Assembly: GCA_016193565.1 (NCBI GenBank) | Contig: JACPRY010000052.1 | Span: forward strand, 1,686 to 36,896 | DNA from: Armatimonadota bacterium | GTDB lineage: Bacteria > Sysuimicrobiota > Sysuimicrobiia > Sysuimicrobiales > Kaftiobacteriaceae | Direction: 5' to 3' | DNA length: 35,211 bases | Shown here: piece by piece, positions 3,297-9,503 of the stretch | Layout of the letters: every line of letters starts with the position of its first letter | Numbering within the stretch: position 1 is the stretch's first letter | The notes under the pieces: generated by a model | Databases searched by the model: none | Seen by the model: only the letters and a program-made list of their open reading frames with translations | What the model was told of the DNA's origin: nothing | Position numbers and translations under genes: made by a program

Positions 3297-4583
3297 TTGG
3301 ATGCCTCTGGTAGTCCGCTGGGGTACGTCATCCTGGCGGTGTTTTTGCTCTTGCTACTCTCTGCGTTTTTCTCCGGAGCCGAGACCGCACTTTTCGCGGT
3401 GAACCGGTTGCGCATGCGGCGGATGGCCGAAGAAGGCCGCCGCCGGCCAGCGCTCATCCTCCGGCTTCTCGAGCAGCCGGGGCGCGTGCTCACCGCGCTG
3501 CTCGTCGGCAACAACATCGCCAACGTAACCGCGTCCGTCCTGGCCACCGCGCTGCTGGTCGCCGTCCTGGGTCCCCAGCTCGGTCCAATCTACGCGATCA
3601 TCATCCTGACGCTCGTCATCCTCATTATCGGCGAGATCACACCGAAGACGTTTGCTGCTAAATACGCCGACCGGCTGGCAATCCTGGTCTCGCGACCCGT
3701 GCATTATTTCACCGTTGCGTTGACCCCGGTGATCTGGCTGCTGTCTCGGCTGAGCGACCTGCTCGTCCGCCCGCTGGGCGGCCGCGTCAACCTGGCCTCA
3801 CCGCTCGTGACCGAAGAAGAGATCCGGCTGCTGGTGAAGATGGGCGAAGAGGTGGGCGTGCTGCAGGAAGAAGAGCGGCAGATGATCCACTCAATCTTCG
3901 AGTTCGGCGATACCGTGGCGCGCGAGGTAATGGTCCCGCGCATCGACATGATCTGTATCGAGGACAGCGCGAGTCTGGATGACATCCTCAGGGTCATCCT
4001 TGAAGAGGGTCACTCCCGCCTGCCGGTGTACCACGAGAGCATCGACCGCATCGTCGGGGTGATCTACGTGAAGGACCTACTCAGTCACTTGAAAGCCGGC
4101 CACAGCACACTGCAGGCGAAAGAAGTGATGCGCCCGGCATATTTCATCCCCGAGACGAAGCGGCTGGACGATCTGTTCAGGGAGATGCGCCGCAAGAAGA
4201 CGCCGATGGCGATCGTCGTCGACGAGTACGGCGGCACGGCCGGGCTAGTCACGACCGAAGACCTCCTGGAGGAGATCGTGGGCCCGATCCTTGACGAGTA
4301 TGACGTCGAAGAGAAGCTCGTGGAGATCGTCAACGATCAGGTGGCGCTCGTCGATGGTCGCCTGAGCCTCGAAGAGGTCAACGAGCTCCTGAACCTCGAC
4401 CTGCCGGTCGGAGAAGTAGACACGATCGGAGGCTTCGTGTACGCCCTGCTGGGGCGCGCGCCGACTCAGGGCGAGTCCGTCCGGGCTGACAGCGTGGAGA
4501 TGCAGGTAGAACGGCTCGACGGCCAGCGGATCGCCCGGGTCAAGATCACCAGGCTGGTGCCCTCCCAACCGCTGCGGCCGTAA
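3297..4583 (+). CDS. CNNM/HlyC-CorC family protein (CNNM + CBS pair + CorC_HlyC domain)
   Basis: N-terminal TM DUF21, EEEIRLLVKMGEEVGVLQEEERQMIHSIFEFGD, CBS motifs, VDEYGGTAGLVTTEDLLEEIVGPI; TTG start with GGGAG ribosome-binding site. Confidence 0.92.
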   Translation: MDASGSPLGYVILAVFLLLLLSAFFSGAETALFAVNRLRMRRMAEEGRRRPALILRLLEQPGRVLTALLVGNNIANVTASVLATALLVAVLGPQLGPIYAIIILTLVILIIGEITPKTFAAKYADRLAILVSRPVHYFTVALTPVIWLLSRLSDLLVRPLGGRVNLASPLVTEEEIRLLVKMGEEVGVLQEEERQMIHSIFEFGDTVAREVMVPRIDMICIEDSASLDDILRVILEEGHSRLPVYHESIDRIVGVIYVKDLLSHLKAGHSTLQAKEVMRPAYFIPETKRLDDLFREMRRKKTPMAIVVDEYGGTAGLVTTEDLLEEIVGPILDEYDVEEKLVEIVNDQVALVDGRLSLEEVNELLNLDLPVGEVDTIGGFVYALLGRAPTQGESVRADSVEMQVERLDGQRIARVKITRLVPSQPLRP

Positions 4584-6065: not shown

Positions 6066-6222
6066 AAGTCTATTGCGTCCATTGCGTCCATTGGGTCCAT
6101 TGCGTCCTCTGTGGGAAGGCCTTGTAGGGTTTGTTGCGTCGAAGACGCAATATTCCCTGAGATAATTCAGGAGACGCAATAGACGCAACAGACGCAATAG
6201 ACGCGATGGACGCAAAAGACGC
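6066..6222. repeat. Element C: tandem-repeat-armed inverted repeat (9-nt word ATTGCGTCC / rc), with nested palindromes in the loop
   Basis: Left arm attgcgtccattgcgtccattgggtccattgcgtcc; right arm gagacgcaatagacgcaacagacgcaatagacgcgatggacgcaaaagacgc; loop contains TTGCGTC-gaa-GACGCAA (6134-6150). Confidence 0.92.
6158..6166 (+). promoter_or_regulatory. Possible extended -10 (TGAGATAAT) inside element C loop
   Basis: TGn-GATAAT, 5/6 to TATAAT, about 40 nt upstream of ATG 6206. Confidence 0.35.
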
Positions 6223-7498
6223 CCTTCAGGTTTTCTATCTGAGCCAGCTCATTGGCGCCGCAATTGTGGACGCCGACGGACTTCGGCTGGGTGTGCTCGG
6301 CGACGTCGCCGTCGATCTGCGCGAAACGCTCCCCCGTGTGACGGGCGTCTGGATGCGCAGCGACCGCAGCCTTGTGGCGCTCATTCCCCGCGACGCGATC
6401 GCCGAGTTCCACCTCCATGCGGTGTGGCTGAAGGTCGCCCGCCGGTACCTCCAGCCGCGGCCGCTCCAGCCCGAAGAGATGCTGCTCGGCGAGGTCCTCG
6501 ACAGCCAGGTCGTGGATACCGACGGCCTGAAGGTCGTGCGCGTCAACGACCTGCAGTTGATGCGTACCGACGGTGATCTCAGGGTGCTGGCGGCAGATGT
6601 CGGCACGACGGGACTCCTGCGGCGGCTGAACCTGGAAGGACCGGTGCAGCGTCTGGTGCGCGCCTTCGGACGAAGGCTGCCGGATCGCGTCATCCCCTGG
6701 CGCATGGTCGCCGCGTTCGGCGGCCGGATGACGCCGGTGAAACTCTCGATCTCCCGCGAACGGCTCCGCGAAATTCATCCGGCCGACCTGGGGCAATTGA
6801 TGGGAGATCTCGACCGCGATGAGCGCGTGGAAGTGATGACCGCGCTGGAGCACGAGGCGGCGGCCGATACGCTCGCCGAAGCCGAGCCCGAGGTCCAGGC
6901 CGACGTGCTCAAGAGTCTGCCCAGCGAGCTCGCGGCGGACATCCTCGAGGAGATGTCGCCGGACGACGCGACCGACGTGCTCACCGACCTCCCGGCCGAG
7001 AAAGCCAGCGAGCTCATCGGCCTGATGGAAGCGGAAGAGGCCAAGGATGTCCAGGAACTGCTGAAGCACCCTGAGGGGACCGCCGGCAGCGTGATGACCA
7101 CGGAGTTCATCGCGCTGCCGGAAACGCTCACCGTCGAGGAGACGATCCAGTTTCTCCGGGAGAAGGCGCCTGAAGCCGAACAGATTTACTACTTATATGT
7201 CGTTGACGCGCAGCAGCGGCTGGTCGGCGTGCTCCCGCTGCGGACCCTCATCACGTCGCGGCCCTCGCAGCGCCTCAGCGACATTATGGTCTCCGGTGTC
7301 GTGTATCTCTCCGTCAACGACGCTGTCGAAACTGCCGCGGGGGCGCTCACCAAGTACGACCTCCTGGCGATGCCGGTGTTGGATGAATCGCTGCGCCTGG
7401 CCGGCGTCGTCACCGTCGATGACGTGATGGACGTCGTTCTGCAGAAGGGGCGGCGGCGAGTGCCCCCGCGCTTCCGCCGTCGAGCGAGGCAGCGCTGA
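6206..7498 (+). CDS. Soluble PRC-barrel / MgtE intracellular N domain / CBS-pair protein lacking the MgtE membrane domain
   Basis: IHPADLGQLMGDLDRDERVEVMTALEHEAAADTLAEAEPEVQADVLKSLPSELAADILEEMSPDDATDVLTDLP (MgtE_N), then GTAGSVMTTEFIALPETLTVEETIQFLR and second CBS; ends at RRRVPPRFRRRARQR without TM segment. Confidence 0.85.
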   Translation: MDAKDALQVFYLSQLIGAAIVDADGLRLGVLGDVAVDLRETLPRVTGVWMRSDRSLVALIPRDAIAEFHLHAVWLKVARRYLQPRPLQPEEMLLGEVLDSQVVDTDGLKVVRVNDLQLMRTDGDLRVLAADVGTTGLLRRLNLEGPVQRLVRAFGRRLPDRVIPWRMVAAFGGRMTPVKLSISRERLREIHPADLGQLMGDLDRDERVEVMTALEHEAAADTLAEAEPEVQADVLKSLPSELAADILEEMSPDDATDVLTDLPAEKASELIGLMEAEEAKDVQELLKHPEGTAGSVMTTEFIALPETLTVEETIQFLREKAPEAEQIYYLYVVDAQQRLVGVLPLRTLITSRPSQRLSDIMVSGVVYLSVNDAVETAAGALTKYDLLAMPVLDESLRLAGVVTVDDVMDVVLQKGRRRVPPRFRRRARQR

Positions 7499-8742
7499 TG
7501 GGGTCCTGGCTCCGGTACCGGTGGAGCCGCCTTACGTTGTTCCTTGCTATCATGGGCCCCGGGATCATCACCGGGAACGTCGACAACGACGCCAACGGAA
7601 TCGCCACCTATTCGGTGGCCGGCGCGGAGTTCGGCTACGGACTGCTCTGGACGCTGTTCTTCTCGACGGTGACGCTCGCGCTCGTGCAGGAGATGGTCGC
7701 CCGGATGGGAGCGGTGACCGGGAAGGGGCTCGCCGACCTGATCCGGGAACGCTTTCGAGTCCGGCTGACGGTCCTGGTGATGAGCATTCTGGTACTGGCG
7801 AACTGGGCCAATACCGTGGGTGATTTTGCCGGCGTCGCGGGCTCGATGGAGATCTTCGGCGTCAGCCGTTATCTCACCGTGCCACTGGCGGCGCTGTTGG
7901 TCGGTGTGCTGGTGGTGCGCGGAAGCTACCGAGTCGTCGAGCGGGTCTTTTTGGGGGCGACGCTGATTTATGTGACGTATATCGTCTCGGCCGTGCTCGC
8001 AGACCCTCCCTGGGGCCAAGTGTTGCGTGCCACGGTTACTCCGGCATTCCGGTTTGAGGCGCGGTACCTGGCGCTGGTAGTCGGACTGGTCGGCACAACA
8101 GTTGCACCGTGGATGCAGTTCTACCAGCAGGCCGCCGTTGTGGATAAGGGGATCGGTGAGAAAGACTACGCATATGCACGGCTGGACACGTATCTCGGTG
8201 TCATCTCGCTCAATGCGGTTGCATTCTTCATCGTCGTCGCGTGCGGAGCGACGCTGTTCGTGCACGGGGTCCGGATCCAGGACGCAAAGGACGCCGCCGT
8301 CGCGCTGGCCCCGCTCGCAGGACAGTACGCATCGACGTTGTTCGCCATTGGGCTCCTCAATGCAGCCGTTTTCTCCGTGGCCATCATCCCGCTGTCGACG
8401 GCGTACACGGTGTGCGAAGCCTTCGGCTGGGAGGCGGGGCTCGACCGGACCGTCCGCGAAGCGCCGATCTTCGTGGGCCTGTACACCGGGATGATCGTCC
8501 TCTCGGCGCTGGTCATCCTCGTGCCCGGCATCCCGCTGATCCCCGTGATGCTGCTCTCTCAGGTGCTCAACGGGATTCTGCTTCCGTTCGTACTCATCTT
8601 CATCGTCCTCTTGATCAACGACCGGCAAGTCATGGGCGAGTATCGCAACTCCAAAACGCTGAACGTCGTCAGCGGTCTCACCATCCTCGTGATCATGGTC
8701 CTGACGTCCCTTCTCTTATGGACCTCGGTCGCGACGCTGTGA
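7498..8742 (+). CDS. NRAMP/SLC11-related divalent metal transporter (NRMT-like)
   Basis: GPGIITGNVDNDANGIATYSVAGAEFGYGLLW (TM1), VGTTVAPWMQFYQQAAVVDKG (TM6 region, M-P-H motif replaced by A-P-W), many TM helices; 1-nt overlap with upstream gene. Confidence 0.85.
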   Translation: MGSWLRYRWSRLTLFLAIMGPGIITGNVDNDANGIATYSVAGAEFGYGLLWTLFFSTVTLALVQEMVARMGAVTGKGLADLIRERFRVRLTVLVMSILVLANWANTVGDFAGVAGSMEIFGVSRYLTVPLAALLVGVLVVRGSYRVVERVFLGATLIYVTYIVSAVLADPPWGQVLRATVTPAFRFEARYLALVVGLVGTTVAPWMQFYQQAAVVDKGIGEKDYAYARLDTYLGVISLNAVAFFIVVACGATLFVHGVRIQDAKDAAVALAPLAGQYASTLFAIGLLNAAVFSVAIIPLSTAYTVCEAFGWEAGLDRTVREAPIFVGLYTGMIVLSALVILVPGIPLIPVMLLSQVLNGILLPFVLIFIVLLINDRQVMGEYRNSKTLNVVSGLTILVIMVLTSLLLWTSVATL

Positions 8743-9503
8743 TGCCCGTCTATAAAGCTGAGGCGATCGTCATCCGCCGCGTAAACCTCGGGGAGGCGGA
8801 CCGCCTGGTCACGCTGTACGCGCGCGATCACGGGAAAATTGCCGCCGTGGCCAAGGGTGCGCGCAAACCGAAGAGCCGGTTCGCCGGCCGGCTGGAACTG
8901 TTCACGCACATCCGGGCGTTGCTGGCGGTGGGGAAATCACTCGACGTCGTCTCACAGATCGAGGTCATCGAACCGTTTGCCCCGCTGCGCTCGGATCTGA
9001 CTCGGCTCGGCTACGCGTCGTTCGTCGCGGAACTGATGGACCGCGCCACCGCAGACCGCGAGCCTGCGCCCGAGATCTTCCGGGCACTCCGCGCCGCGCT
9101 CACGTTCATCATGGAAGGCGACGCCGAGATGGGTGGCCTATGGTTTGCGGCGCGAATCCTCGCACTGATTGGCTATGCGCCGGTCGTCGGACGCTGCGCG
9201 GTCTGCGGCCGGCCGGTTTCAGGGACCGCGGTGTACAGTTACGCGCTCGGTGGGACGCTGTGTGAGACGGACCGGCCTCGCGATCCGCTGGCGGCGACGG
9301 TCTCGGCGGCGGCACTCAAGTCTGTCGGATTTCTCCTGGAGACCCGCCCCGACACGCTGGCGCGGCTGTCCCTCGACCGCCGGCTCCGGACGGAGGTTGA
9401 GGGGCTGCTCCTGCGGTCGCTGGAGTACCGGCTGGAAACGAAGCTGAAGAGCCCGCTGGTTATACAGAAACTACGACAACGCGATAACGCGACAACGCGA
9501 TAA
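8742..9503 (+). CDS. recO: DNA repair protein RecO
   Basis: MPVYKAEAIVIRRVNLGEADRLVTLYARDHGKIAAVAKGARKPKSRFAGRLELF; CxxC at CAVC. Confidence 0.93.
   Translation: MPVYKAEAIVIRRVNLGEADRLVTLYARDHGKIAAVAKGARKPKSRFAGRLELFTHIRALLAVGKSLDVVSQIEVIEPFAPLRSDLTRLGYASFVAELMDRATADREPAPEIFRALRAALTFIMEGDAEMGGLWFAARILALIGYAPVVGRCAVCGRPVSGTAVYSYALGGTLCETDRPRDPLAATVSAAALKSVGFLLETRPDTLARLSLDRRLRTEVEGLLLRSLEYRLETKLKSPLVIQKLRQRDNATTR

Follow-up and report, generated by a model that had tools for sequence, protein, structure and literature searches.

The window, a stretch of 35,211 nucleotides from an Armatimonadota bacterium, carries two adjacent forward-strand genes at 6206–8742. The first (6206–7498, 430 aa), here called the sensor gene, encodes two PRC barrels, an MgtE_N superhelix, a CBS pair and a short basic tail. 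The second (7498–8742, 414 aa) encodes an NRMT-type NRAMP transporter with D-A-N-G in TM1 and T-T-V-A in TM6. The sequence reads TGATG at 7496–7500 (forward strand), where the sensor TGA (7496–7498) and the transporter ATG have one A in common. Both reading frames and this overlap had been given in a sequence-only reading of the window and proved to be real. A second TGATG (8740–8744, forward strand) links the transporter gene to a recO gene, and the ORF starting at 8742 was confirmed by Pfam as RecO. A chance origin of the pair is excluded by the profile E-values and by its conservation across phyla.

Two features of the surroundings may be mentioned. A CNNM/CorB-type gene (PF01595, CBS pair, CorC_HlyC) lies at 3297–4583, three genes upstream of the pair; this family is linked to Mg2+ transport. 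A dispersed palindromic element without assigned strand (6068–6222), which is context outside the system, overlaps the sensor start codon. Its arms consist of the 9-bp units TTGCGTCYA / RGACGCAAT plus a spacer, and its 3' arm provides the start codon and the first six or so codons of the sensor gene; at C131 another ATG directly follows a 3'-type arm. Several copies occur in the window genome and in G019–G021, and the element is absent from the other 39 genomes of the phylum, including G015 of the same genus. Further occurrences were listed at L146, L147, L148 and L150.

Family of the transporter and anatomy of the sensor

The transporter matches the Pfam family Nramp (PF01566, E = 3.8e-101). 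Its best match in the PDB is EleNRMT (4.7e-117, 49% identity), all others being at 2.9e-29 or weaker, and these search E-values place it with the NRMTs rather than with canonical NRAMPs. The NRMT signature was described as DxxG in TM1 and TxxA/T in TM6, as opposed to DxxN and A/CxxM (PMC8806188). The DANG and TTVA of the window transporter agree with this signature, and its TM1 (ITGNVDNDANG) and TM6 (GTTVAPWMQ) align column for column with NDAGG and GTTIAPWM of EleNRMT. The sequence-only reading had picked out GNVDNDANG and TVAPWMQ in an NRAMP-like gene, and considered that the loss of the NRAMP methionine would fit NRAMP-related Mg2+ transporters; the alignment with EleNRMT agrees with this. 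Since the signature is present, the missing methionine is a trait of the subfamily rather than an oddity of this gene, and by its sequence the protein is assigned to the NRMT (NrmT) subfamily of SLC11/NRAMP. A homologue 70% identical to it superposed on EleNRMT (7qia) in Foldseek with a TM score of 0.94.

The genomes of family f4 and G015 also contain NRAMP-related paralogues (L128–L138, 33–38%) with DNDPAG/DDDPSG and TPYM/SPYM motifs, or ENDAPS and TPWM in the case of L136. These divergent proteins were considered as extra partners of the sensor and rejected, as their motifs differ and no sensor gene adjoins them.

The domain order given for the first gene by the sequence-only reading, ending before a membrane domain, was borne out by Pfam, which returned PRC (2.1e-8, two stretches, one at residues 9–41), MgtE_N (PF03448, 3.1e-26, residues 190–290) and two copies of CBS (PF00571, 9.3e-17), and no match to the MgtE membrane family (PF01769) in this gene. 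In an AlphaFold model built on an alignment of 89 sensors (mean pLDDT 89.5), a pair of small barrels is connected to the MgtE superhelix through a joint of low confidence (residues 174–180), and the CBS pair follows. The first PRC-like barrel spans residues 8–75 (6227–6430), where the Pfam stretch coincides with beta strands of the model. The second spans residues 91–170 (6476–6715) and was placed from the other Pfam stretch, the model and the alignment. They are followed by the MgtE_N superhelix (residues 181–294, 6746–7087) and the CBS pair (residues 297–414, 7094–7447), both recognised by Pfam and in the model. The basic C-terminal tail (GRRRVPPRFRRRARQR, 7448–7495) occupies the position of the MgtE plug helix and is modelled as a low-confidence helix. 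All of these segments are on the forward strand. A sequence search of the PDB matched the MgtE cytosolic domain (E = 1e-46), and in Foldseek the second half of the model superposes on MgtE (2zy9/2yvy). The PRC assignment is based on Pfam and on the arrangement of the strands, and every match listed by Foldseek was to an MgtE, CBS or CNNM structure; a search of a viral structure library gave no useful match. A 242-aa sensor frame that is devoid of the PRC part was seen at L125 (1438–2166) and is reminiscent of the split fragment known from C. acetobutylicum.

The gene stops where the membrane domain of MgtE would begin, as might be expected of a decaying remnant of MgtE that lost its channel half and has no present function. 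The same truncated, PRC-bearing architecture, however, is found in the 89 aligned sensors from many phyla, with intact frames and conserved ligand positions. This conservation refutes the remnant idea, and its probability is practically nil.

The numbering of TtMgtE was transferred to the sensors with twelve residues from the literature as anchors. The window sensor has Asp at positions 59, 91, 95, 226, 247 and 250 (E59, D91, D95, D226, D247 and D250 in MgtE), which are the ligands of sites Mg4–Mg7. It lacks the plug-helix ligands E258 and D259 of sites Mg2 and Mg3, and has the basic tail instead. Across 95 sensors, D95 was retained in 93, D91 in 76, D247 in 71 and D226 in 36, so position 226 is poorly conserved as a ligand. 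Family-wide, the ligand positions were acidic at a frequency of 0.76 against 0.52 for other acidic positions (p = 0.03), which is a modest excess. Taken from these residues, binding of Mg2+ by the sensor seems probable. Sensing of ATP by the window sensor was rejected, because the base contacts N203 and F227 are replaced by V and L; the ribose contact D188 is T.

Nine columns are invariant in the 89 aligned sensors, and four of them (D99, D104, D115 and R139) are in the second PRC domain, which makes this domain a candidate coupling surface. The same four residues can also be read in another way, in which the protein does not gate the transporter at all and is merely co-expressed with it, serving as a metal chaperone, as an assembly factor or as a regulator that acts elsewhere, perhaps through its PRC barrels. 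PRC barrels are general adaptors. Shin et al. (PMC4072509) likewise considered a chaperone role for the MgtE-like fragment. Against this speak the MgtE parentage of the protein, which suggests gating, the restriction of the sensor to NRMT genomes within the phylum, the genomes in which the two genes are unlinked and both still kept, and the predicted contact described below. A non-gating role is therefore regarded as quite improbable.

Distribution of the pair and of MgtE

An NRMT of the window subfamily was found in 31 of the 43 genomes of the phylum. Thirty of these proteins are at least 56% identical to the window transporter; the remaining one is a divergent protein of G013 that shares the motifs and whose gene is followed by a sensor gene. 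In all 29 loci that are unbroken by contig ends the sensor gene adjoins the NRMT gene. The 12 NRMT-less genomes are without a sensor; MgtE_N matched full-length MgtE there or, weakly, FliG-like sequences. The gene order in families f1 and f2 is hlyC-cdd-era-sensor-NRMT-recO-glyQS, and in families f4 and f6 the pair is at other genomic places.

For a wider survey, 84,980 genomes were scanned and the 80 best NRMT loci retained; close relatives of the window protein are over-represented among them. The loci come from Chloroflexi, Omnitrophota, Deltaproteobacteria, Nitrospirae, Firmicutes, Acidobacteria, a Methanomicrobia MAG and others, and one locus (L048) is from a genome of the window's own phylum (G041). 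A sensor gene was present within about 1.1 kb in 69 of the 80 loci, either upstream, downstream or convergent, and in these sensors the chain continues past the CBS pair for no more than about 20 residues. Eight further loci have no sensor nearby; in their genomes a sensor is encoded at another place, likewise with the PRC part and free of a membrane domain. The last three NRMT genes are at contig ends. Two of these genomes have an MgtE_N ORF (437–447 aa) elsewhere, and none was found elsewhere in the genome of the third (L088). The conservation of the pair that the sequence-only reading had called for is thus found both in the phylum and in the best loci across phyla. Pairing of sensor and NRMT is almost obligatory across bacteria. 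A natural fusion of the two proteins was sought and not found, the sole candidate (815 aa, G030, L029) being a frameshift with the CBS part out of frame.

The MgtE membrane domain shows the opposite distribution. It was detected in 12 genomes of the phylum, of which one (G014) belongs to the 31 NRMT genomes and eleven to the 12 that lack NRMT; in other phyla, one of 20 NRMT genomes was above the MgtE cut-off. NRMT and MgtE channels thus almost exclude each other in the phylum of the window; as the genomes are related, these counts are not mutually independent. An MgtE membrane domain encoded elsewhere as partner of the sensor gene was what the sequence-only reading had named as evidence against itself, and no such domain (PF01769) was found in the window genome, which is 87% complete. 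The exclusion searches covered MgtE and CorA. CorA is present in the window genome, and neither MgtE nor CorA was found in 15 genomes of the phylum, i.e., all 12 of family f4 and three of genus g5. In NRMT-less genomes (L032–L039) full-length MgtE is encoded twice in tandem, and the two products may form a heteromeric MgtE. The idea that a sensor is paired with a full-length MgtE in such relatives was dropped, as the pairs are actually these tandem genes.

M-box riboswitches were found in eight of the 53 related loci that were scanned, with a sensor nearby in six (L053, L062, L078, L094, L103 and L116) and before NRMT alone in two (L069 and L075). No M-box was found in the window.

These distributions bear on whether the transporter is mainly a Mn2+ importer, with the MgtE-like protein sensing Mn2+ or the balance of Mg2+ and Mn2+. 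The transporter of A. capsulatum acted as a Mn2+ importer despite having a sensor; it fully rescued a Mn2+-import mutant and rescued Mg2+ uptake only at low millimolar concentrations (PMC4072509). EleNRMT carries Mn2+ as well as Mg2+, in both cases without H+ coupling (PMC8806188, Ramanadane et al. 2022), and the window genome could rely on CorA for Mg2+. However, the relatives controlled by the M-box are 51–58% identical, NRMT genomes are mostly devoid of MgtE, the 15 genomes above lack CorA as well, and the soft methionine ligand is missing from the transporter. Import of mainly Mn2+ is considered unlikely, yet it is the main rival of sensor-gated Mg2+ import.

A sensor that may gate the transporter in trans

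The reading that we favour, with moderate confidence, is that the pair imports Mg2+ independently of protons and that a Mg2+ sensor gates this import in trans, a gating that the sequence-only reading had already inferred. By analogy with EleNRMT, the transporter would be a carrier of the NRAMP fold with a widened ion site that has no methionine; this site would accept Mg2+ (and Mn2+) in partly hydrated form, and transport would not be coupled to protons. Lacking such coupling, the carrier would work like a channel and would therefore need a brake, as MgtE has. The MgtE_N-CBS part of the sensor would bind Mg2+ and become compact as in MgtE. The sensor may dock on the transporter from the cytosol, with its PRC barrels, its tail or both, and would inhibit transport when cytosolic Mg2+ is high.

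Contact between the two proteins was modelled with the pair of locus L007, whose sensor is 72–73% and whose transporter is 68–70% identical to the window proteins. Its genes are in frame across a single TGA, which was read as Trp (table 4), and about 33 intergenic residues served as the joint. The AlphaFold model of this pseudo-fusion, made from an alignment of 109 rows of which 22 were paired, had a pTM of 0.71. According to the pTM formula, which was the only yardstick and was used without an unrelated-fusion control, two halves that are unplaced relative to each other would give about 0.45–0.55, and 0.71 corresponds to a mean error between the halves of about 8–10 Å. The model suggests that the sensor docks on NRMT; the interface called for by the sequence-only reading thus has a prediction in its favour, which falls short of proof.

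The published experiments can be read in two ways. In complementation of B. subtilis, NrmT was functional without the sensor gene, and co-expression of the A. capsulatum fragment, in a test whose transporter seemed to prefer Mn2+, did not improve the rescue; the latter is, as far as the source indicates, the single published co-expression test (PMC4072509). No later test of the MgtE-like fragment was found in the open-licence literature. Activity without the fragment and no gain in rescue are expected of a brake, and equally of an irrelevant protein. It is this ambiguity that limits our confidence in sensor-gated Mg2+ import.

With about even chances, a broader view may be taken: an MgtE-type Mg2+ sensor was separated from its channel and acquired PRC barrels, and it docks on an unrelated carrier, a LeuT-fold NRAMP, which it gates in trans. 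Sensor and NRMT together would then be a complete replacement of MgtE across many phyla, and the conserved second PRC domain would either couple the two or be a new site for metal. If this is true, transporters of two unrelated folds are under the control of one sensing module, once in cis and once in trans. Importers of Mg2+ need a cytosolic brake, and if the sensor is the brake of NRMT, studies of NRMT without it miss half of the system. The almost obligatory pairing across bacteria makes control of the transporter by the sensor an idea that is easy to test.

Comparison with known systems

The window sensor resembles the MgtE channel (2zy9, 2yvx and 2yvy) in its MgtE_N superhelix, CBS pair and Mg2+-ligand residues. 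It differs in having neither the plug-helix ligands nor the membrane domain and in its extra N-terminal PRC barrels; the pore of the window pair is an unrelated transporter. This transporter shares the NRAMP fold and Pfam family with canonical NRAMP/MntH proteins (DraNramp and ScaDMT), in which the ion site has the DxxN and A/CxxM motifs that are replaced here. EleNRMT (7qia and 7qji) is the closest in identity, ion site (DxxG/TxxA) and fold; it was studied without a sensor partner, and the accessible part of its paper does not discuss an MgtE fragment.

The nearest precedent is the set of nrmT/mgtE-fragment operons of Shin et al. (2014, PMC4072509), such as Ca_c0685 of C. acetobutylicum and ACP2976/2977 of A. 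capsulatum. According to the available text, homologues of the cytoplasmic domain of MgtE are encoded in most nrmT loci and were proposed to act in feedback regulation, and an M-box lies upstream in a subset of the loci and is not required. The window has the same gene pair, to which the same proposal applies, without the M-box. The idea of gating has thus been known since 2014. As far as that text goes, the PRC barrels, the near-obligate co-occurrence even of unlinked genes and the exclusion with MgtE go beyond it, and what is new here is the extent of this co-occurrence and the exclusion of MgtE.
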